NCBI GenBank assembly: GCA_947381965.1
Contig: CANCXX010000003.1
Span: forward strand, 1-64,000
Source of the DNA: an uncultured bacterium
GTDB taxonomy: Bacteria; Bacillota; Clostridia; Lachnospirales; Lachnospiraceae
Reading direction: 5' to 3'
DNA: 64,000 nucleotides
Part shown: piece after piece, positions 1,848 to 51,617 of the stretch
Layout: the number at the start of each line of letters is the position of its first letter
How positions within the stretch are numbered: the stretch's first letter is position 1
The notes under the pieces: model-generated
Database searches by the model: none
Seen by the model: only the letters and a program-made list of their open reading frames with translations
Told to the model about the DNA's origin: nothing
Translations under genes and position numbers: made by a program

Positions 1848-2870
1848 TCAGACGCGCTCCAGTTTCAGGTTGGGAACCGCATTCAAATCAAAACCATGAC
1901 GCACTCCTTTTTGGTATTCATAATATGCCGCCGTACCTATCATTGCAGCATTATCTGTACAATAGACAGGAGAAGGATGATAAAATGTAATTCCTTTTTC
2001 CTGGCAGGCTTCCTTAAGAACTTTTCTTAAAGAACTGTTGGAAGCCACTCCGCCTGCTATGGCAAACTTTTTATATCCGTATTTTAAAGCCGCTTCCATA
2101 GAGTGTCCGGCTAAAACGTCAATCACTGCCTTTTGGAAAGAAGCGGCCACATCTGCTGTGTTTATTTGCTCTTCCTTCATTTTACAGGAATTTAAATAGT
2201 TTAAAACTGCTGATTTTAAACCGCTGAAGCTAAAATCATATTCCGCATCCCCAACTTTGGCGCGTGGAAAATAAATAGCCTGGGGATTTCCCTCTTTTGC
2301 CGCTTTATCTATTTTGGGGCCTCCCGGATACCCCAGTCCAATGGCCCTTGCCACCTTGTCAAAGGCTTCTCCGGCTGCGTCATCCCTTGTTCTTCCTATT
2401 ACTTCGTATTCTCCATAATCATGAACCACTACAAGATGGGAATGCCCTCCTGATACCACCAGACACAAAAAAGGCGGTTCCAGATCTTTATTTTCAATGT
2501 AGTTGGCAGAAATATGTCCTTCAATATGATGTACTCCCACCAGTGGAATCCCGGATGCAAAGCTGATTGCCTTGGCGGCGGAAACCCCTACCAGAAGCGC
2601 TCCCACCAGCCCTGGTCCGTAGGTAACGGCAATGGCATCCATGTCTTTCAGTTTCATTTCAGCATCCGAAAGGGCCTGTTCAATTACCTGGTTTATTTTT
2701 TCTATATGTTTACGGGAAGCAATTTCCGGCACCACGCCTCCATATTCCGTATGGAGGGCAATCTGTGAATAAATAACATTAGAGTGCACATCTCTCCCAT
2801 TTTTTACCACTGCCGCTGCTGTTTCATCACAGGAACTTTCTATTGCCAGTATATATATATCCTTTTCCAT
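1848..2870 (-). CDS. tsaD: tRNA N6-adenosine threonylcarbamoyltransferase TsaD
   Basis: Catalytic subunit that transfers the threonylcarbamoyl group to A37 of ANN-reading tRNAs, working with TsaB and TsaE, whose genes lie upstream in the same operon. The 340-residue protein begins with the ASKHA signature [12 protein letters not shown] and carries the metal-ligand motif HHIEGH near residue 115 and [10 protein letters not shown] near residue 270. Length is normal. Its ribosome binding site (GCGGGGG, 8 bases before ATG) belongs to a dispersed repeat that fills the intergenic region upstream. Ends about 95 bases before the chosen ispD start. Confidence 0.97.
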
Positions 2871-3056
2871 TTTTTATACCCCCGCATACCGTAAGCTGCG
2901 CTTGCGGTACTGCATCCATAAACAGTTTGGAAGTTTACTTCCAAACTTATTCCCCCGCATATCACTGGAGCGTGATACTGCACCAATAAGCAGTTTGAGC
3001 GTTTCCTTCCAAACTTATTTTCCATACCGCCAGCAATGCCCGCGATACTGTACCGA
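2871..3056 (-). repeat. Tandem array of boundary leader repeat (about 2.5 units) before tsaD
   Basis: On the minus strand three stem-loops of the form GCAGTA(C/T)CGC...GCGGTATGCGGGGG-(T)ATAA follow each other at about 68-base spacing. They are separated by the second palindrome GTTTGGAAGTAAACTTCCAAAC. The last unit ends directly at the tsaD ATG and its G-run is the ribosome binding site. Related single or double units lie at 8472-8515, 34799-34937 and 51040-51092, always ending at a start codon. Confidence 0.8.
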
Positions 3057-3072
3057 TAGCGAATTAGGTAGT

Positions 3073-3663
3073 TTACTGTCCGTTTTCGTCATCTGCCAGT
3101 TTAAATCCGTAGATTTTCCAGTGTCCGTCCTTGTCCTTACGAAGTAAAAAAACTTCCTCTGTCTTTGCAAGTTCTGTCCCCTTCCTTAAAGTAAAGGAGC
3201 AATACAGCTCTGACCAGTCAAATCCGTCCTTTGAAAAGGTTTCCACATCCACACTGCTGGAAGGCGTAAAGCTTGATATTACGATTCCCTGTTCCCGGAA
3301 ATTGTTTACATCCCATTTCAGATTGTCAAAATATTGCTGCTGGGTTTGGTTGGCAATCAACTCATCATCATAAAGTCTTTGTATCTGCAGCGCCAGCTTT
3401 TCAAACTCTTCATCTGTGTATTCTTCATTATAAAAACATTTGGTTATCTCACCATAATATTTAATCACTTCTCTTGCCGAGGGCGGATAATTCTTATCAA
3501 GATTCCGCATCAGAACTTCGCTTACTGCCGAAATTTCTGTTTCTGCTTCTTTCCCTTTGCCTGATTTTATATGCGTAAGATAAAAATAATAACCTGCTAT
3601 CATCCCCACCAATATCACGCCGATAATGATTATTTTTATTCCACTGCCATTTTTTGTTTTCAT
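3073..3663 (-). CDS. Membrane-anchored protein of unknown function (resembles DUF6715)
   Basis: A 196-residue protein with a short basic N-terminus, one membrane segment at about residues 9-28 (IIIIGVILVGMIAGYYF) and a long soluble part that should face outside. The soluble part is rich in charged residues and ends with a beta-rich half containing EVFLLRKDKDGHWKIYGFKL, the look of an NTF2-like or lipoprotein accessory fold. ATG follows GGGAGG and starts two bases after the rnz stop, so the two are co-translated. My match to DUF6715 is from memory of Lachnospiraceae proteins and is uncertain. No catalytic motif is visible. Confidence 0.75.
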   Translation of the reverse strand: MKTKNGSGIKIIIIGVILVGMIAGYYFYLTHIKSGKGKEAETEISAVSEVLMRNLDKNYPPSAREVIKYYGEITKCFYNEEYTDEEFEKLALQIQRLYDDELIANQTQQQYFDNLKWDVNNFREQGIVISSFTPSSSVDVETFSKDGFDWSELYCSFTLRKGTELAKTEEVFLLRKDKDGHWKIYGFKLADDENGQ

Positions 3664-7250: not shown

Positions 7251-8471
7251 CTATTCGTGCCGGAGCGCTTCTATGGGACTTAGCTTCGCCGCTTTTCTTG
7301 CAGGATAGATTCCAAAGAAGATACCGATGCCGCAGGAAAAAAGTGAGGCTGCAATTACAACGCCTGCGCTTATCTGGGCAGTTAATCCCATTGCAGAGCA
7401 TACGCCCATCGCCCCCAGAACCCCAAGGCCAATTCCAATAATTCCGCCCAGCAATGTAATAATGCCTGCCTCTGCAAGGAACTGTAAAAGCACCGAACCA
7501 GTTCTTGCGCCTAACGCCTTTCTGATACCGATTTCTCTTGTCCGTTCGGTAACGGACACCAACATAATGTTCATAACGCCGATTCCCCCTACCAGAAGGG
7601 AAATGGCTGCCACGAAGGAAATAAATATGGTAATAAAACCCAGTATTGTGTCAAACTGTGCCGTAAAGTCCGCAAAGCTCTGCATCATAATCTGGTTTTC
7701 TCCCCTGACATTATGTCTGCTCTCCAAAAGCGCAAGGGTTTTGGAGGCAACTTCTGACATGTACTCCGGGGACTGGGCAATTACATAGAACTGTTCCAGT
7801 TCATCAATATAATATCCCAGCTTGTTCGACATAAAGGTAAGGGGAACCTCCGCCTGTATTGTGACAACCCCTCCGCCGCCGGCATTTATGAGGGCGGAAG
7901 CATTGTCCTTACGCACCCCCACAATCCTAAGTTCCTGGGTAATGCCCCAGAATGTGGCGTTAAAAGTCATCCCCACCACATCTGTGGTTCCAAAAAGCGC
8001 TACCGCACTGCTTTCCGTAATAATGCAGGTATTGCCTGCGCTGTCATAATCATTCTGGGTGAAGTATTTTCCTTTGATAACCGGATCTGTGGAAGTATAC
8101 TGCAGCCCTGTGGTACCTCCGGTCATGCTGATATCAAAATCACCTTTTGGGCCCTCCGCAGTGCCCCAAGTGCCAAAGGAAGGTGTGACGCCTTTTACAT
8201 GTTCTATTTGTGATTGTATTGCGTCAAAGTCATCCTGACTGAAAGTAACAGTTGTGTCCTTTCTGGTGCTGTCCACATAAAATACAATTTGGCCGCTGCC
8301 AACAGACTCCAGCTCTGAATTTACCTGCCCCCGTACGCCATTTCCAATAGAAATAACCATAATAACAGAGGAAATTCCAATAATAATCCCCAGCATGGTG
8401 AGAACGGAACGTCCTTTATTGCTTCTGATGTTCATCAGGGCAATTTTTATGTATTCCCAAATTTGTGCCAT
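7251..8471 (-). CDS. MacB-type ABC transporter permease
   Basis: Integral membrane subunit of a mechanotransmission-type ABC system. One N-terminal membrane helix (SVLTMLGIIIGISSVIMVIS), a large extracytoplasmic MacB_PCD domain (about residues 50-275), then three C-terminal helices with the FtsX-type ERTREIGIRKALGA loop and end motif PARKAAKLSPIEALR. About 406 residues. Translation most likely starts at the second ATG (8471), seven bases after GGGGG supplied by a dispersed leader repeat; the first ATG lies only two bases after the G-run. It forms an operon with the adaptor and the ATPase upstream, so it probably exports a drug, peptide or lipid-like compound. Confidence 0.92.
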   Translation of the reverse strand: MAQIWEYIKIALMNIRSNKGRSVLTMLGIIIGISSVIMVISIGNGVRGQVNSELESVGSGQIVFYVDSTRKDTTVTFSQDDFDAIQSQIEHVKGVTPSFGTWGTAEGPKGDFDISMTGGTTGLQYTSTDPVIKGKYFTQNDYDSAGNTCIITESSAVALFGTTDVVGMTFNATFWGITQELRIVGVRKDNASALINAGGGGVVTIQAEVPLTFMSNKLGYYIDELEQFYVIAQSPEYMSEVASKTLALLESRHNVRGENQIMMQSFADFTAQFDTILGFITIFISFVAAISLLVGGIGVMNIMLVSVTERTREIGIRKALGARTGSVLLQFLAEAGIITLLGGIIGIGLGVLGAMGVCSAMGLTAQISAGVVIAASLFSCGIGIFFGIYPARKAAKLSPIEALRHE

Positions 8472-8515
8472 TTTCATACCCCCTGCCTGTCACGGACCAG
8501 CCGTGATACTGCTTT
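8472..8515 (-). repeat. Boundary leader repeat, single unit before the MacB-type permease
   Basis: The minus strand reads GCAGTATCACGG, a loop, CCGTGA, then CAGGGGGTATGAAAATG. It has the same order of stem, G-run and TAT(A/G)AAA-ATG as the units before tsaD, marR and the acetyltransferase at 51039. The stem here is GTATCACGG/CCGTGA. Confidence 0.65.
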
Positions 8516-8538
8516 TTGTAAAAAGTCCGGAAGTTTGC

Positions 8539-10047
8539 TTACTGCAACATTTCCATTACTGTCATACCTTCTGTCAGGGATGCAGTCACATCTACCACCA
8601 CATGCTCCCCTTCCAAAAGCCCTTCCGTTACCTGAACCATAGTATCGGAAGAAATTCCTGTCACAACAGGCTTCTTGACCAGTATACCGGATTCAACCAC
8701 ATAAACAAATTCTCCGTTCATATCTACATTAACTGCCGTTACCGGAACCAGCACCGCATTTTTCTCCTGTGCCGTACTGATAACCACCTTTGCCTCTACG
8801 CCAAGTATCACATCACTGTCAGGATTGATAATTTTAATTTCCGTCCCCACAACTGCCGCACCACTGTTATTTTTTTCCGCCATCTTATTGATTTTGGAAA
8901 CCTCGCCCTGATATTCTTTGCTGCCGATGGTCACTACTGCCTTCTGTCCCATGGCAATCTTATCCAAATCATATTTTGTTACCGTTATTCTCACCATAAC
9001 ATCCTGTGTGCTTTCCAGTTTAAGAAGCTGGGAACCTGCGGTCATGCTGCCGCCTTCCACTGCGCTTATTTCAGTGACAACGCCGTCAAACTCGGCAACA
9101 ATACCGCCTGCTGCCGCATCTAAGTCTTCAATGGAATCTGCTGCTTCGATTTCTTTTGTCTGATTTTGGGCTTCCAGCTCCTGCCTTGCACCGGAGGTCA
9201 TTTTCCCTGCCTCTGCGGAACTTCTCTGGGATTTCATTTCAGAACGGTATTCCTTCAGTTCCGAAAGTATTTTATTCTGGGCATCCAGTTCATCCTGCCA
9301 TCCCCGTATTTCCTTGTTATTCTGCTGTTCATAGCTGTTAAGCTGCACCTGTTTTTGCAAACCCATATATTCCTCTGAATCCGGCTGGTCCTGCCAGTCC
9401 AGCAAGGATATCTGAAGAAGGGCCCCTTCATAGGCTAAGTCGTTTTTCTTCTTTTCAATTTTGTTCTCCAGATCGGTTATACAGCTTTCCGTAAATGCTA
9501 TCTGCTGCTCCAGAACTTCAATATTAACATTTGCCTCGTTAATATCCCCTAATTTTTCGTTATTGCTTTGAAGGGAATTCCGGTAGCTCCCTTCTGCCGA
9601 TTTAACCTTAAGCTCCGCAAGTTCTCTTTCCTTTGCAATCTCGTCCGCATCGTAAGAAACCAGCATATCTCCTGCCTTCACTGCATCTCCTGCTTCCACG
9701 GACACTTTGTCAATCTTAACACTGACGTCTGAAAAATAGCTTTTGGTCTTTTCAGTGGTTACGGTTCCGCTGGTGTTAATGGTCTGTTCAATTTCTCCGG
9801 TAACGGCCGACGCGGTGGCCACATATGCCTGGGGACCTTCCTCACTAAGCAGATTCTTTCCTACAAAAGCTGCCGCAATCAGCACAATGACAACAACCGT
9901 AATAATTCGTCTGCGCTTTTTCCTTGCCGCTCTGTCAAGAGGTTTCTTTTCTTTTTTCGGCTTCTTTTCTTTTCCTTTCTTGTCCTTTTCCATCAGCGTG
10001 ATTTCCATGTTTTCTGTTTTTCCTTCGTCCGTTTTCTTGTCAGACAT
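8539..10047 (-). CDS. Efflux adaptor protein, HlyD/MacA family
   Basis: A 502-residue adaptor with a lysine-rich cytoplasmic N-terminus (about 48 residues), a single membrane segment ITVVVIVLIAAAFVG, a lipoyl/barrel-sandwich half (VSVEAGDAVKAGDMLVSYD), a long coiled coil (about 120-290), the second lipoyl half with AEFDGVVTEISA, then beta-barrel domains. In a Gram-positive cell it should be anchored outside the membrane and work with the permease downstream and ATPase upstream. ATG follows GGAGGG. The coiled-coil hairpin is long compared with minimal Gram-positive adaptors. Confidence 0.92.
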   Translation of the reverse strand: MSDKKTDEGKTENMEITLMEKDKKGKEKKPKKEKKPLDRAARKKRRRIITVVVIVLIAAAFVGKNLLSEEGPQAYVATASAVTGEIEQTINTSGTVTTEKTKSYFSDVSVKIDKVSVEAGDAVKAGDMLVSYDADEIAKERELAELKVKSAEGSYRNSLQSNNEKLGDINEANVNIEVLEQQIAFTESCITDLENKIEKKKNDLAYEGALLQISLLDWQDQPDSEEYMGLQKQVQLNSYEQQNNKEIRGWQDELDAQNKILSELKEYRSEMKSQRSSAEAGKMTSGARQELEAQNQTKEIEAADSIEDLDAAAGGIVAEFDGVVTEISAVEGGSMTAGSQLLKLESTQDVMVRITVTKYDLDKIAMGQKAVVTIGSKEYQGEVSKINKMAEKNNSGAAVVGTEIKIINPDSDVILGVEAKVVISTAQEKNAVLVPVTAVNVDMNGEFVYVVESGILVKKPVVTGISSDTMVQVTEGLLEGEHVVVDVTASLTEGMTVMEMLQ

Positions 10048-18023: not shown

Positions 18024-18118
18024 CAACCGGCGCCCGCGGTCAGAACAGATTTGCGGAGTTTCCGCGCAATGTTCTATGGTATGAGGTTTAGAATGCCCGG
18101 ATATTTCGACTTGGCATT

Positions 18119-18285
18119 TATGCCTGCCAGCCTTCTTGGTTTTACCCAATGGCTCTTTTCCGGTTTGTGGCTTCCGGTAAGGCAGACAATTGCTTCTATG
18201 CTTCACGGCGACGGGCTCGTACAGGATTTTCACCTGTTTCCCCGGACAATCCGTTTAATATCATAACGTTTTCTGTCTCATTGGT
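18119..18285 (-). promoter_or_regulatory. Cobalamin (B12) riboswitch
   Basis: On the minus strand GGGGAAACAGGTGAAAATCC is followed by the junction sequence GAGCCCGTCGCCGTGA and, further on, by GAGCCATTGGG and the B12-box-like AAGAAGGCTGGCAGGC. Order and spacing match cobalamin aptamers. The region from 18060 to 18001 (GCGGA stem, then GCGGGCGCCGGT) would be the expression platform before the DUF4430 gene. Confidence 0.88.
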
Positions 18286-18396
18286 CAAGCAGACTTTCCT
18301 CAACCTTAAAAGCTTCTCTTAAATCGCATTTTTGCGAAATTCTATGTTGCAAATATGCGCCACCCATGATATATTTTTATTATTGGAGGTGAAATT

Positions 18397-21954: not shown

Positions 21955-22041
21955 GTCCCTGTAACAAAAGCAAGCATCAGAAATAATGATCGCTTCTGTT
22001 TCCATGCTTTACCTGTGAGTGTATGAGCCATACAATCATCA

Positions 22042-22182
22042 TCTTCTCTCATCCAGACTATACTGTCGGTTTTGGGATTTCACCAAATCGGCCATTTCCT
22101 TTGCCTGATGCCATCTGCACCGGAAATTCATGGTTCGCGGACTTTAACCGCCGGTAGGGAATTTCACCCTGCCCCGAAGAAC
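22042..22182 (-). promoter_or_regulatory. FMN riboswitch (RFN element)
   Basis: Minus-strand sequence contains CTTCGGGGCAGGGTGAAATT, CCGGCGGTTAAAGTCCGCGA, GGTGCAGAT, TTGGTGAAATCCC and ACCGACAGTATAGTCTGGAT, all conserved blocks of the FMN aptamer in the right order. Confidence 0.97.
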
Positions 22183-22321
22183 TTTTCTTTATTTACCATT
22201 GGTAGAATACCATGGAAATATGAGAAAATCAAGGGGGGTATGGAATTTTTCTAAAATATTTTTCACTGGGGAATATGTCAAAAGCTACGTAAATTCTGAC
22301 ATTGTCTTCTCCTCGTTTTTA

Positions 22322-26508: not shown

Positions 26509-26529
26509 CTGTATATGACTCCTTTCCGT

Positions 26530-26619
26530 TAGAGCCTGTTTGAAAAATCATTTCCAACATCTGCACACGGTAAATCGCCTCCCTACATTTGTTGGAAAGC
26601 ATTTTTCAAACACGATCCA
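26530..26619. repeat. TAGAGC palindromic repeat, short copy
   Basis: TAGAGCCTGTTTGAAAAATC at the left pairs with GCATTTTTCAAACACGATCC at the right over most of the 90 bases; inner parts TTTCCAACATCTGC and TTTGTTGGAAAG also pair. It lies just upstream of the corrinoid activator gene. Confidence 0.75.
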
Positions 26620-26729
26620 GGCACTGTGAATAAAAGACATAAACAACAGAATTATATCACCCTGAAAAGTTCAATTCAAGATTGCCCCTGTCTTTGTATT
26701 GAAGTATAATTATTATGACAATATATCAG

Positions 26730-29210: not shown

Positions 29211-29240
29211 TCTATTCCTCCTCTTTTTTATTCCAGTATA

Positions 29241-29405
29241 TAGGTAATTGCGAAACTCGTAAACTTGCTGAATATTCTGACAATATATTCTGCGAAAAGC
29301 CTTATGCACCATGGAATCAAGACCATAGAAGGCAGGAGGGACGCTCCCCGACTGTCTTCTGTCCTGCTGGGCTTGATGGAATGCACGGTGCAACAGGTTA
29401 ACCTA
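29241..29405 (+). mobile_element. MITE (TAGGTAATTG family), internally deleted copy
   Basis: Starts TAGGTAATTGCGAAACTCGT and matches the element at 47081-47295 for about 155 bases with roughly three differences. It then jumps to the outer tip TTAACCTA, having lost most of the right terminal repeat. It lies between trkH and trkA, and the trkH stop codon TAA falls in its right tip. No target duplication is evident. Confidence 0.8.
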
Positions 29406-30925: not shown

Positions 30926-32011
30926 ATGCCTAAAGTAATCTTAACCGGCGACAGACCCACTGGCCGCTTACATGTAGGTCATTATGCAGGTTCCCTAAAA
31001 GAAAGGGTCAAACTGCAAAATTCCGGTATATATGACAAAATTTTTATCATGATTGCCGATGCCCAGGCACTGACAGACAATGCGGAGCAGCCGGAAAAGG
31101 TCCGCCAGAATATAATTGAAGTTGCGCTGGACTATTTATCCTGCGGGCTGTCACCGGATTTATCCACCCTTTTAATCCAGTCGCAAATTCCTGAGCTTTG
31201 CGAACTTTCTTTCTATTACATGAACCTTGTGACTGTATCCAGACTGCAGCGCAATCCTACCGTTAAATCTGAAATTCAGATGCGCAATTTTGAAGCAAGT
31301 ATCCCGGTAGGCTTTTTCACCTACCCCATCAGTCAGGCGGCGGACATTACCGCATTTAAAGCCACTACTGTCCCTGTAGGCGAAGACCAGCTTCCCATGA
31401 TCGAGCAGACCAGAGAAATTGTCCGCAAATTCAACACCATTTATGGCGATGTCCTGGTTGAACCGGATGTGCTTCTTCCGGATAACAAAGCCTGCCTGCG
31501 GCTTCCCGGTATTGACGGAAAAGCAAAAATGAGCAAATCTTTAAACAATTGTATTTATCTTTCCGATACAGAGGAAGAAGTCCGCAAAAAGGTTATGTCC
31601 ATGTTCACGGATCCCAACCATCTGCAGGTGTCCGACCCTGGCCAGGTGGAAGGCAACCCTGTTTTTATTTATCTGGATGCTTTCTGTAAAGAGGAAATGT
31701 TTGCCGAATATCTTCCTGAATATGCAAATCTGGAGGAATTAAAAGCCCACTATACCAGAGGCGGCCTTGGAGACGTAAAGGTAAAGAAATTTTTAAATAA
31801 GGTGCTTCAGGAAGAGCTTGCGCCTATCCGTTCGAAAAGAAAAGAATGGGAAAAAGATATCCCCGCAGTTTACGAAATTCTTCGCAAAGGCAGTATGGCG
31901 GCAAGAGAGGTTGCTGCCCAGACTCTTGATGATGTAAAAAAAGCAATGAAAATCAATTATTTTGACGACCAGGCGCTGATTACGGAGCAGTCAGAGAAAT
32001 ATCACTCCTAG
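30926..32011 (+). CDS. trpS: Tryptophanyl-tRNA synthetase
   Basis: Charges tRNA-Trp. Class I signatures: [13 protein letters not shown] (HIGH-type) near residue 8 and AKMSKSLNN (KMSKS) near residue 200; [14 protein letters not shown] binds the substrate. 361 residues is slightly long for TrpS because of an insert and an extended C-terminal helix. AAGGAG precedes ATG. The stop codon TAG is also the first three bases of a dispersed palindromic repeat. No T-box is visible upstream. Confidence 0.96.
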
Positions 32012-32102
32012 CGCATGTTTGAAAATTGCTTTCTGCCAGATGTACGTCACAATTTGCGGAAGATCTGTGTCAAATGAAGACGCCGTAGTGGGAAACCTGC
32101 TC
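32009..32102 (+). repeat. TAGAGC palindromic repeat, left-half copy after trpS
   Basis: TAGCGCATGTTTGAAAATTG and ACGTCACAATTTGCGGAAGA match the left half of the full copy that follows directly; the right half is missing. Its first three bases are the trpS stop codon. Confidence 0.75.
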
Positions 32103-32279
32103 TAGAGTGTGTTTGAAAAGTGCTTTCCAGCAGATGTGCGTCACAATTTGTGGGAGATTTGTGCCAAATGAAGGGCGCATAGTGGGCTATGTAACCTGAA
32201 TTTGGCGCAAATATCGCGCAAAGTGGGGACGCGGTTTTCCGCATGCAGATGTTGGAAATGATTTTTCAAACACGCTCTA
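32103..32279 (+). repeat. TAGAGC palindromic repeat, full-length copy
   Basis: A 177-base element with imperfect terminal inverted repeats of about 38 bases: TAGAGTGTGTTTGAAAAGTG on the left against TGATTTTTCAAACACGCTCTA read inward on the right. Inner arms are GATTTGTGCCAAAT and ATTTGGCGCAAATATC. The whole element can fold as one long hairpin. It has no coding capacity, so it is of MITE or REP type. Confidence 0.8.
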
Positions 32280-32460
32280 AAACGCTCTGCTTACTTTGGT
32301 CATCTATTTGCAACAGCTGGTGCAATATTATTTACACCGGCTTTTCTTCTAAATCCATCGGTTTTTCTTTTTCTTCTATTGTTATTTTTACACTACGCCT
32401 TCGTTGTGCACAATAAAAAGACAGATAAATTATTTTGCCAGATTAAGGAGTCATGTTGTA

Positions 32461-34723: not shown

Positions 34724-34798
34724 ATATAAATTTTTACCATACGCCGGGACTTTCAGCTTCCAATAGATACAGCTGCAAAGCTTTAACAGGCAGGCCTG

Positions 34799-34937
34799 TA
34801 AACTTCCAAGTTCTATTGGTGCAGTACCGCAGGCACAGCTGGCGGTATGTGGGGGATATAAGTTTGGAAGTAAACTTCAAAACTGCTTATTGATGGCAGT
34901 ACCGCAAGCAAAGCTTGCGGTATGCGGGGGTATAAAA
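34799..34937 (+). repeat. Boundary leader repeat, double unit before marR
   Basis: Two units: GTGCAGTACCGCAGGCACAG...GGCGGTATGTGGGGGATATAA and GGCAGTACCGCAAGC...GCTTGCGGTATGCGGGGGTATAA. They are separated by GTTTGGAAGTAAACTTCAAAAC. The second ends at the marR ATG, 7 bases after the G-run. Since the promoter is at 34683, both are transcribed as leader RNA. Confidence 0.85.
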
Positions 34938-35405
34938 ATGAATCAAATAGGTTTGTACCTGAAAAAAATCCATATCATATTGGAGCGCCGGAGAAATTAC
35001 GAATATCGTGACTATGACCTGACCAGTACACAGATAGATATTTTGGAGTATCTTTATTTCAATGGCAGTGAAAAGAACACCCTGTCTGATATAGCCGCCT
35101 TTTTCGGCGTGCAGCATACCAGCGTCATTCATGTTTTAAAGATATTAGAAAATAAGGAACTAATATACCGGAAAGAATCTTCCAGGGATTCCCGGTGCAA
35201 AGCCATTCTGCTGACCCCCCAAGGAGATGCCATTATGAAAAAGCATCTTGGCAGTTCCGCCAGTCACGAAACCCTTCTCTGTGCCGGTATTCCCAGAGAA
35301 AATATGGAAATTTTGGAAAATTCCCTTCGTCAAATCTATCAAAACCTGCAGCAGGCTGAAAAACTCCCGGAACTACACCAGTGCAAAAGTAAGACTGTAT
35401 GCTAG
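34938..35405 (+). CDS. MarR-family regulator
   Basis: A 155-residue winged-helix protein. The recognition region is TLSDIAAFFGVQHTSVIHVLKILENKELIYRKESSRDSRCKAILLTPQGD, with the conserved wing DxRxK pattern; only its key parts DSRCKAILLT are needed for assignment. Start at 34938 is set by the repeat-borne GGGGG. It is followed by a MATE transporter and preceded by two GTAGCnnGCTAC palindromes, so autoregulation and control of the transporter are likely. The stop codon TAG is also the tip of a TAGAGC repeat. Confidence 0.9.
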   Translation: MNQIGLYLKKIHIILERRRNYEYRDYDLTSTQIDILEYLYFNGSEKNTLSDIAAFFGVQHTSVIHVLKILENKELIYRKESSRDSRCKAILLTPQGDAIMKKHLGSSASHETLLCAGIPRENMEILENSLRQIYQNLQQAEKLPELHQCKSKTVC

Positions 35406-35457
35406 AGCATGTCTGAAAAATGCTTTCCAGCAGATGTGATTTTTCAAACACGCTCTA
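35403..35457 (+). repeat. TAGAGC palindromic repeat, short copy after marR
   Basis: TAGAGCATGTCTGAAAAATG to TTTTTCAAACACGCTCTA, 55 bases, with inner parts deleted. Its first three bases are the marR stop codon. Confidence 0.75.
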
Positions 35458-45616: not shown

Positions 45617-45749
45617 TTTCCTCCGTTTCCTACGATTTTGTGATCTGCTTTTTCTGCGTCTTTATAAATCTCCTATATCGTATCGTAAGTGCAGGTCGAA
45701 CACAAGCGAACGTTTTTTTAGAATGTTCAACCATTGGTTAAATGGATAT

Positions 45750-45817
45750 TTTCAACATCTGCACGCGGGAAACCGCGTCCCCACATTTGCCGGGAAGCAT
45801 TTTTCAAACACGCTCTA
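45750..45817. repeat. TAGAGC palindromic repeat, right-half copy
   Basis: TTTCAACATCTGCACGCGGG, GCGTCCCCACATTTGCCGGG and GCATTTTTCAAACACGCTCTA match the right half of the family. It ends exactly where the CTAG-ended MITE begins. The 45617-45749 stretch holds no feature I can support. Confidence 0.7.
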
Positions 45818-45980
45818 GTGCTTTATCCGGCCAGTAATCGCACTGCCAGTGCCGAATATTTTGTCATTCTGCAAGGCGGAGGAAGGAGGCGATGCGGTGG
45901 CATCGTTGACTGACGACAACGCAGAGGATGGCAAAATAGGCGGTACTGAAAGTGCGATTACTGACCGGATGGAGCACTAG
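45815..45980. mobile_element. CTAG-ended MITE, 166 bases
   Basis: Terminal inverted repeats of about 57 bases with several mismatches: CTAGTGCTTTATCCGGCCAG and TAATCGCACTGCC on the left against CTAGTGCTCCATCCGGTCAG and TAATCGCACTTTC read inward on the right. The centre has CAAGGCGGAGGAAGGAGGCG. It interrupts a transposase reading frame, which runs on into the element. Confidence 0.8.
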
Positions 45981-46163
45981 CGCCACAAAACAGATAATAA
46001 AGTGCGCCCGGATGTGTTCCCGTTTGTTCAGGTAGATCGGCATTGCATCGAAATCGCTTTTCATGATCCAGAAAGACGCCTCAATACGCCACAGCCCATG
46101 GTATACTTCCCGTATCTTTGCGGCATCATAATCCTGTTCATTGTTACCGTATAAGCCATCCAT
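45981..46163 (-). pseudogene. C-terminal fragment of an IS4/IS1634-type DDE transposase
   Basis: Encodes REVYHGLWRIEASFWIMKSD and IYLNKREHIRAHFIICFVAL, the region around the catalytic Glu in IS1634-like transposases (pattern Y...R.IE..F...K). The 5' two thirds are missing (the fragment abuts the parE 3' end) and the 3' end is cut by the CTAG-ended MITE. Confidence 0.75.
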
Positions 46164-47034: not shown

Positions 47035-47080
47035 GTTTATTTTCTGACAAATCTTACCTCCTTATTATGTTGTGCTTAGA

Positions 47081-47295
47081 TAGGTAATTGCGAAACTCGT
47101 AAACTTGGTGAATATTCTGACAATCTATTCTGCGAAAAGCCTTATGCACCATGGAATCAAGACCATAGAAGGCAGGAGGGACGCTCCCCGACTGTCTTCT
47201 GTCCTGCTGGGCTTGATGGAATGCCCGGTGCAACAGGATTTGAGTGGAATGTATTGTCAGAATATTTTCACAACTTCAAGTTTCGCAATTACCTA
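47081..47295 (+). mobile_element. MITE (TAGGTAATTG family), complete copy with 13-base target duplication
   Basis: 215 bases. The left end TAGGTAATTGCGAAACTCGT and the right end CAAGTTTCGCAATTACCTA are inverted repeats that extend inward to TGAATATTCTGACAAT and ATTGTCAGAATATT, about 45 bases in all. It is flanked by the exact 13-base direct repeat TGTTGTGCTTAGA (47068-47080 and 47296-47308). No coding capacity. A second, shortened copy is at 29241-29405. Confidence 0.92.
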
Positions 47296-50430: not shown

Positions 50431-51039
50431 CTATTCTTCTTTTGTTGGCAAAGCAGAATTGCCCGACGTTTCATCAATGTCTGACCGTTTCACAATAGCA
50501 AGCATTATAACATCATGAAACTCCCGCCCAAATGGATAATGATGAAGTATTCCTTCCCTCAGATAGCCGTTTTTTTCAAGCACCCGCATAGAGGGTCTAT
50601 TTTCAACATGTACAACGCCCTGGATTCTTCGCAGTCCAAGCTCGTTTAATCCAAAATCCGTTACCCTTGCTGCCACTTCGCTGGCAGTGCCTTTTCCCCA
50701 GCTTTCATATGCGTAGTGATACGCAATTTCAGCCATTGTTTGTTTCACAAATCCGCCTAAATCAATTCTCCCGATTACCTTTCCGTTGGTTTTCGATTTC
50801 ACGCACCATGTAAAAACAAGTTTTCTCTTTAAAAGACGGTCATTAATATTATTAAGCCAATTTGTAATCTTTGGTTCCTGGTCAAACAAAGGCACACCGC
50901 CGCCAAGATATTTCTGCACCCTGTCATCTCTTAAAATTTCAAAATATTCGTCCATATCTTCCCTGGAAAAAGGAACCAATAGAAATCGGTCTGTTTCTAA
51001 AGAAGGAACACTGTCAAAATAATCTTTAAATTTCTTCAT
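50431..51039 (-). CDS. GNAT acetyltransferase, RimJ/RimL type
   Basis: 202 residues: LETDRFLLVPFSREDMDEYF at the start, then GRIDLGGFVKQTMAEIAYHY, the acetyl-CoA loop SWGKGTASEVAARV and LGLRRIQGVVHVENRPSMRV, ending with a 25-residue polar tail. RimJ/RimL-like enzymes acetylate N-termini or small amines. Its ribosome binding site GCGGGGG comes from the dispersed leader repeat directly upstream. Confidence 0.88.
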   Translation of the reverse strand: MKKFKDYFDSVPSLETDRFLLVPFSREDMDEYFEILRDDRVQKYLGGGVPLFDQEPKITNWLNNINDRLLKRKLVFTWCVKSKTNGKVIGRIDLGGFVKQTMAEIAYHYAYESWGKGTASEVAARVTDFGLNELGLRRIQGVVHVENRPSMRVLEKNGYLREGILHHYPFGREFHDVIMLAIVKRSDIDETSGNSALPTKEE

Positions 51040-51092
51040 TTATATACCCCCGCATATCTCAGGCATCGTCTGCGATACTGCATCAATCCCCT
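51040..51092 (-). repeat. Boundary leader repeat, single unit before the acetyltransferase
   Basis: Minus strand GATGCAGTATCGCAGACGAT, CTGAGATATGCGGGGG, TATATAA, ATG. The stem is TATCGCAG with CTGAGATA (one bulge). The 3' end GATATGCGGGGGTAT matches the other family members. Confidence 0.75.
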
Positions 51093-51110
51093 CAGCCAAT
51101 GCTGCTTATC

Positions 51111-51617
51111 TTATCGGTAAGTTACATATTCCTCTACACTCCGTCGTTTGAAATGCTCTTTCGAAGGTTCCGCGTCCGTATACCCCATTATAAGAATTGC
51201 AACAGGTTCTACGTTATCAGGCAGTTCAAATTCAACCCGAATTGCTTCGGGGATAAAATACATGATCCACGCAGAACCTATGCCTAAATCTGCCGCCTCC
51301 AGCATCATGTGTGTTGCAACAATGCTTACATCAATTTCACCGCTGTGTTTATTATCATAATCTCGTTTCCAACATTTTTCCTTATCATAGCAGATAATAA
51401 ATGCAAGGGGTGCATTATAATGACACTCGGTACATTTTTTCAATGTTTCAAGCCCTTTGGATGACTGAACAACAATTATCTCCTGGGGCTGGTTATTATG
51501 GGCTGTTGGCGCGGCATTCCCTGCCGTCAGAATTTGGTCTGTCACCGCTTTTGGAATCGGCATTTGCTTAAAGCTACGCACAGAATACCTTTTGGCAGCC
51601 AGTTCTTGAAAATTCAT
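51111..51617 (-). CDS. Nitroreductase-family flavoprotein
   Basis: 168 residues: AAKRYSVRSFKQMPIPKAV at the start (FMN phosphate-binding RxSxR), AGNAAPTAHNNQPQEI, then DIGIGSAWIMYF and PVAILIMGYTDAEP near the end. It should bind FMN and reduce nitro compounds, quinones or flavins with NAD(P)H. The length is that of the short form. GGGAGG precedes the ATG. Confidence 0.9.
   Translation of the reverse strand: MNFQELAAKRYSVRSFKQMPIPKAVTDQILTAGNAAPTAHNNQPQEIIVVQSSKGLETLKKCTECHYNAPLAFIICYDKEKCWKRDYDNKHSGEIDVSIVATHMMLEAADLGIGSAWIMYFIPEAIRVEFELPDNVEPVAILIMGYTDAEPSKEHFKRRSVEEYVTYR

Follow-up and report, generated by a model that had tools for sequence, protein, structure and literature searches.

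The start codons of four genes in a 64,000-nt stretch of Lachnospiraceae DNA (the window) are preceded by copies of one stem-loop repeat, and the locus raises the question of whether this repeat controls translation or came to lie there by another route. The first-pass annotation described a dispersed stem-loop that ends at start codons and supplies the SD, took the kept pairing of its stems as a sign of selection on structure, and proposed that it could control ribosome access. All seven units that it had named were present, three of them before tsaD, two before marR, and one each before the genes of a MacB-type permease and a GNAT acetyltransferase (Table 1), and the Pfam domains of the four products (TsaD, MacB_PCD/FtsX, MarR, and GNAT acetyltransferase) agreed with the four different functions assigned. 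The observation was confirmed and is larger than described; the regulatory reading was partly supported.

The full unit runs from HP1 to GGGGGTATA and measures approximately 73-75 nt. HP1, the 5' half, is a 24-nt perfect palindrome (AGTTTGGAAGTAAACTTCCAAACT in gene orientation). It is followed by a linker (TTATTGGTG; general form nnTTATTGGTG), by HP2, a bulged hairpin (GCAGTACCGCAAGC-aaa-GCTTGCGGTATGC) whose bulge is the fourth base, G, and by the SD GGGGGTATA, which forms the 3' end of the unit and is most often followed by ATG after 3 nt. Head-to-tail arrays have a period of approximately 73-75 nt and the junction GGGGGTATA/AGTTTGG. The unit had been outlined as a stem plus a G-run, both of which exist within this greater extent, and the second palindrome that had been considered special to tandem versions is HP1 itself. 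The ends of the unit (AGTTTGG.. and ..GGGTATA) have no complementarity, each hairpin being a separate palindrome. HP1 is eroded or missing in many copies, and HP2 is retained where HP1 is eroded, with the caveat that such copies were found by HP2. A variant unit at L249, L261, L278, and L281 (P. muri and P. intestinalis) carries an additional hairpin, ACAATAGGC...GCCTATTGT, within the HP2 foot.

Two covariance models were used, R1 for HP2 alone with the G-run excluded and R2 for the full unit. The seven units of the window scored 48.4, 42.7, 39.5, 39.0, 30.0, 29.0, and 26.0 bits with R1; since its training rows include these units, the genome-wide matches are the better test. The repeat array reported at 2871-3056 is real, its extent being that of three head-to-tail units at 2875-3085, the third of which is decayed. 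The unit reported at 8472-8515 was also recovered by R1 (26 bits); this copy is decayed, and R2 missed it at E 0.01. What remains of HP1 in the third tsaD unit (3060-3085) overlaps the stop codon of an upstream ORF (3073-3663).

Table 1. Positions of the repeat units and of the genes that they precede in the window (R1, model of HP2; R2, model of the full unit).
Feature	Position	Strand	Evidence
tsaD array, unit 1, ATG-proximal, intact	2875..2947	-	R2 93.1 bits, R1 42.7 bits
Parts of tsaD array unit 1	HP1 2924-2947, HP2 2884-2913, SD GGGGGTATA 2875-2883	-	sequence
tsaD array, unit 2, HP1 20/24, HP2 shortened	2948..3015	-	R2 66.1 bits
tsaD array, unit 3, decayed, HP2 3023-3050	3016..3085	-	R2 32.7 bits
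tsaD, preceded by the array, unit 1 ending 4 nt before its ATG	1848..2870	-	PF00814 E 4.4e-101
Decayed unit before the MacB-type permease gene	8478..8550	-	R1 26.0 bits; below R2 report at E 0.01
Parts of the decayed permease unit	HP2 8485-8512, G-run, ATG 8477	-	outer limit and HP1 remnant by eye
MacB-type permease	7251..8477	-	PF12704 and PF02687 (MacB_PCD/FtsX)
marR pair, upstream older unit, HP1 eroded 15/24, HP2 34821-34850	34789..34860	+	R2 48.6 bits
marR pair, ATG-proximal intact unit	34861..34934	+	R2 97.4 bits
Parts of the proximal marR unit	HP1 34861-34884, HP2 34896-34925, SD 34926-34934	+	sequence
MarR-family regulator	34938..35405	+	PF12802 E 8e-10
Single unit, no recognisable HP1, HP2 51052-51081, SD, ATG 51039	51043..51111	-	R2 32.0 bits, R1 39.0 bits
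GNAT (RimJ/RimL-like) acetyltransferase	50431..51039	-	PF13302 E 1.9e-23

Pattern counts in the window's 4.3-Mb genome ruled out chance palindromes: the HP1 pattern with up to 3 mismatches gave 45 strand-hits (27 sites by our own count) and its reversed form 0, and a pattern of the HP2 foot plus G-run gave 60 hits against 16 for a control pattern. An HP2 match was located within 75 nt of 23 of the 27 HP1 sites, and the other four were without HP2. The idea that HP1 is the left end of a larger autonomous element was rejected at L035, the HP1-only site that was read (C8:36644 and C34:21104 were left out), as inspection by eye revealed no transposase among its ORFs.

Of the 78 R1 sites listed in this genome, 75 were examined (E up to about 0.064; three had no fetched locus), comprising nine upstream array members and 66 terminal sites. 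The start codon of a long ORF was located 10-14 nt downstream of 53 of the 66 terminal sites (exactly 12 nt in 35), in agreement with a dispersed repeat that supplies the SD at start codons, and an ATG of any ORF lay 9-15 nt downstream of 59. When R2 was used and 12 of 82 rows had been removed (four duplicates and eight opposite-strand shadows), 52 of the 61 terminal units were followed by a start codon within 1-8 nt, 39 of them at exactly 3 nt. For the other species, 22 of 134 rows were removed as opposite-strand shadows, and 78 of the 104 terminal units among the matches listed had a start codon 1-8 nt on, with 53 at exactly 3 nt and three more at -1. These units came from 100 regions among the matches listed (six places in G028, G008, G035, and G009 were left out), and this sample thus leans to high scores. 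At random positions, a start codon at 0-8 nt occurred in 1686 of 16500 cases. A long-ORF start codon within 8 nt was absent from nine of the 61 own units and 23 of the 104 other-species units among the matches listed, and several units of this kind show the ATG of a short ORF at +3 or a further element in between. At the level of sequence, the anatomy, position, and orientation of the unit are established by these comparisons. G000:C57 and G000:C67 share one unit and gene start, probably through an assembly overlap.

Pairing is kept across genera. In a set of 39 units, hand-chosen for spread, 17 of 23 pairs had changed on both sides, compared with a mean of 5.6 in shuffles (2-8 when slid), and 95.3% of the cells were paired. 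HP1 reads AGTTTGAAACTACGTTTCAAACT in one genus and GTGAAAAATC...GATTTTTCAC in another, and L435 has a wholly different HP2 flanked by a linker and an SD of the same kind. In a set of 30 HP2 copies taken almost entirely from the window's genome, changes on both pair sides were seen in 28 cells against 9.9 in shuffles, and two of the five covariation measures were not clearly above shuffles; for HP2 in the window's genome, both-side-changed pairs numbered 6 against 3.6 (30 of 500 shuffles equal or above) and further pair types 17 against 16.2 (205 of 500 equal or above). The claim that pairing survives changes of sequence was hence upheld by the cross-genus set, beyond palindromy, and the covariance-model search and the checks of start distance and covariation revealed neither random placement nor mere palindromy.

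The exact 24-mer of HP1 was found in 29 stretches of a species-level genome collection, a count from which records close to the window's genome may be absent, and all were Parablautia or Lachnospiraceae MAGs. Within the genus, R2 detected units in 17 of 36 genomes, with many copies in G000, G028, G029, and G013 and no match in the other 19. Within the family, 14 of 397 genomes had units (11 of 334 genera; 12 candidates scored per genome), the window's own being included in both counts, and none of 24 genomes from other families of the order had any. The architecture is common to other genera, several with SD-like flanks. No exact match to the two patterns searched was found in viral contigs, and no unit match at E 0.01 in plasmids.

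A constant spacing from the SD and stems that covary strongly between genera are what a cis-regulatory RNA would display, with HP2 beside the SD controlling the access of ribosomes in response to a protein, a ligand, or temperature and the host genes forming a regulon; the retention of HP2 in HP1-eroded copies, though these were found by HP2, fits as well. We consider this explanation distinctly unlikely. The host genes have no common function (MurI, Dxr, TsaD, MetG, LigA, RlmN, an XerD-like integrase, a MarR regulator, transporters, and others; those outside the Pfam-searched set were named by reading of the sequence), and at the window's units none of the Rfam families attained its gathering score. 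In computed folds, the SD 5-mer had a mean probability of 0.56 of being unpaired, as compared to 0.42 when the upstream part was shuffled, and the value was higher in 70 of 93 units. As the SD is more open in these folds than in the shuffled controls, there was no sign of sequestration; the hairpins look self-contained in the model, with the SD left open.

Comparison of sites with and without the unit bears on the same explanation. In the window's genome, the region before murI reads ...GCAGAAAAGAGAATGA/74-nt element/GAT-ATG, and in 29 relatives the SD-ATG spacer of murI has no unit (e.g. ...GCAGAAAAGAGATAAAGATT-ATG). When the flanks of the murI element were joined, 0-1 bases lay between them in 18 of the 29 relatives, and the alignment gap fell on the junction in the other 11. 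A search for target duplication at murI gave no sign of one. This comparison of an occupied and an empty site is one between species; murI is the only clear site without a unit, and the relatives' spacers there have also diverged. The upstream regions of dxr, tsaD, and the xerD-like gene are not alignable among relatives. In 114 loci of other genomes, R2 found no unit at the start codon of murI (29 loci), dxr (29), the xerD-like gene (27), or tsaD (29), and its three matches in these loci fell at other places. In P. muri, a unit precedes a GntR-type gene upstream of murI; this gene reads GGAGGGAAAA-ATG in relatives such as L173, and in P. intestinalis it is without a unit of family A, the family of the window, and with a copy of family C. 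Just six pairs of homologues among the 143 host genes have a unit in both of two species, and these could be old shared insertions. Absence from orthologous loci and the small number of shared pairs both argue against a conserved regulator.

The murI site without the unit, the 114 unit-less orthologous loci, the nesting of fresh over old copies, and the displaced SDs suggest mobile-element insertion, and favour it over selection for ribosome-access control as the reason for placement and covariation. The best reading of the sequences is a mobile element: the unit is probably a miniature non-coding element of approximately 74 nt that targets the SD-ATG spacer and supplies its own SD. Against this reading, neither a transposase nor an excision product nor polymorphism among strains was seen. 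The element would insert, in one orientation, into the spacer between the SD of a gene and its start codon, so that the old SD would be displaced approximately 75 nt upstream and the 3' end of the element would become the new SD, on which translation would continue. The SD of an earlier copy could then serve as the target of a new copy, which would yield a head-to-tail array with the youngest copy nearest the ATG, and several sister families with other hairpins would use the same target site. Within this scheme we infer that copying is active, that the SD itself is recognised as the target, and that mobilisation occurs in trans.

A displaced SD should be visible in front of HP1. Single copies whose HP1 scored 19/24 or better numbered 90; an SD-like 4-mer occurred within 15 nt before HP1 in 60 of them, compared with 18 at 26-40 nt upstream, and an SD-like 5-mer in 32, compared with 5 further upstream; the base just before HP1 was A in 84. 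After 27 copies with a possible older-unit flank had been subtracted, the counts for the remaining 63 were 44 against 13 (4-mer) and 23 against 3 (5-mer). Shuffled 5' flanks contained the 4-mer in 4858 of 9000 cases (54%) and the 5-mer in 1802 of 9000 (20%), the excess over shuffles being modest. Because purines abound in the 5' flanks, little can be based on the 4-mer count by itself, and the 5-mer count and murI weigh more. The flank consensus, rGGRGGATA directly before the unit, resembles the unit's own 3' end. In perfect-HP1 copies, the left and right ends are mostly unlike, and the right end, judged by eye, tracks the element subfamily, which argues that the new SD belongs to the element. 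In some copies, among them L229, L238, and L084, the two ends are alike, which is what duplication of the target or the presence of an older unit would produce. The 5' flank thus often appears to be a displaced SD, and one clear unit-less site and frequent SD-like 5' flanks can be taken as established.

The order of copies within arrays was examined in 17 tandem pairs. The ATG-side copy had the better HP1 in 12, with three ties and two worse, and the higher score in 14, with two ties and one lower. The array order is established by these counts, and such layering is as predicted by repeated insertion at the previous copy's SD. Unspecific insertion followed by retention of those copies before an ATG whose SD or hairpin raised expression, i.e. 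a domesticated translation enhancer, would account for an SD that is more accessible than in shuffled elements and for the many housekeeping genes among the hosts. However, insertions upstream of the SD should then be tolerated and common, and few were seen; moreover, arrays repeat one junction, and sister families of different sequence occupy the same spot. Domestication of this kind is unlikely.

Families B-D became visible at units that are followed by another hairpin element with its own SD and then by ATG. In all, SD-ATG spacers contain at least four further hairpin families (B-E), each with an SD of its own and several of them nested directly after a family-A unit (L247, L264, L267, L406, L410, L411, L180-L182, L193, and L436-L451). 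Family B is found at L247 and L264, and family C at L267 and before the GntR gene in G004, G009, G014, and P. intestinalis. Family D is found at L410 and L411, and in L406 a D copy precedes a unit. In family E (L446 and L451), which was reached via antisense TD-2 matches, an SD stands just before HP1 and GGAGG before the ATG.

The TD-1 and TD-2 RNAs of Treponema denticola are located upstream of genes, with TD-1 overlapping the SD. The Rfam family TD-2 (RF03162) gave 16 matches in 7 of 37 genomes, the best with 44.2 bits against a gathering cut-off of 48.7 and none above it, and no match on the window's family A; TD-2 is therefore a sub-threshold lead. With the antisense strand examined, 11 of the 16 matches had a long-ORF start at -6 to +31 of their end, and five had none. 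TD-2 is like the unit in having two to three hairpins, and its sub-threshold matches fall on families B, C, and E where these occupy SD-ATG spacers, but the 11 start-adjacent matches read antisense to the gene. Matches to caiA and the remaining weak Rfam matches lie elsewhere and were judged to be chance. The main text of PMC2864571, in the part available, contains no mention of TD-1 or TD-2.

If the unit is a mobile element, an enzyme must move it. A Y1 (HUH) transposase was first suspected because of the one-strand hairpins, the conserved bulge of HP2, and the lack of a duplication at murI; the likeness of the 5' flank to the 3' end also fits such a REP/REPIN-like or IS200/IS605-derived element. 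This version, which names the enzyme, is doubtful. None of the 11 Y1 (PF01797) loci carried an R2 unit or linked unit ends (L057, which overlaps L056, was left out), and the Y1 transposase fits poorly as the mover. Y1 genes occurred in 8 of 13 genomes and in none of G013 (21 units, 59% complete), G019 (12 units, 88% complete), and G021 (10 units, 94% complete). No constant GTAG stands before the hairpins. REP/REPIN sequences moved by RAYT (TnpA-REP) are, like the unit, short non-coding palindromes of high copy number, some with bulged stems (PMC8266576, in the part available). The units, in contrast, point toward the gene from within the SD-ATG spacer, and the bases before HP2 vary (GGTG, GGT, and GAT, with GTAG in some P. 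muri and other copies, by eye). An IS200/IS605-derived MITE would be consistent with the SD-like 5' flanks and the absence of a murI duplication, but no parent IS with these ends was found. Some well-kept HP2 copies without a recognisable HP1 could be products of reverse transcription with 5' truncation, a highly improbable origin: in 43 copies with eroded HP1, identity was 0.59 for the left arm and 0.58 for the right, with the left better in 18 and the right better in 18. As the arms showed no asymmetry, we rejected the idea that truncated 5' ends point to reverse transcription.

Bacterial MITEs and the Correia, RUP, BOX, and ERIC repeats resemble the unit as small mobile repeats near genes with nested insertions. 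Unlike a classical MITE, the unit lacks terminal inverted repeats spanning the element as a whole, shows no duplication of the target at murI, and has the SD-ATG spacer as its target. The available parts of PMC10969869, PMC3049150, and PMC2229807, which deal with the ribosome, the start codon, or the insertion site, describe no SD-ATG target, and no literature on repeats inserting into SD-ATG spacers was found in the titles and abstract openings of open-licence papers among the matches listed. The TAACTGA repeats of marine Beggiatoaceae are seven-base direct repeats with little SD character directly before the starts of unrelated genes (PMC4679880, in the part available). They share with the unit an intergenic position directly before start codons, whereas the unit consists of long hairpins and its own SD.

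Insertion into a ribosome binding site would be expected to harm the host, a problem that landing between SD and ATG with a substitute SD would solve. If the unit is mobile, dozens of genes per genome would have had their translation starts changed, including the usually essential murI, dxr, metG, and ligA, and an activity that targets start sites would be implied. Caution would also be due with repeated covarying hairpins at SDs, which are normally read as cis-regulatory RNAs and can be mobile DNA. It is conceivable, albeit rather unlikely, that the families form one superfamily in Lachnospiraceae, perhaps with TD-1/TD-2 of Treponema, that shares a mobility system recognising translation start sites, possibly RNA-guided or ribosome-linked, and rewrites the ribosome binding sites of many genes, essential ones included.

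Further observations concern other records and repeats. MT839524.1 (L452), a scaffold from human faeces named 'Bacteriophage sp.' and marked UNVERIFIED, carries a tandem unit pair at 2021-2169 behind an SD; it was judged bacterial and not phage on our own reading of the kinase, ABC ATPase, and permease that it encodes. In the window, an FMN riboswitch (22037-22185, minus strand) and a cobalamin riboswitch (18079-18311, minus strand) exceed the Rfam gathering score. Another dispersed, partly inverted repeat (CTAGAGTGTGTTTGAAAAGTGCTTTCC...) occurs at 26529-26620, 32008-32280, 35402-35457, and 45748-45983, and a 161-nt direct repeat links 29237-29397 with 47077-47237 at 98% identity.
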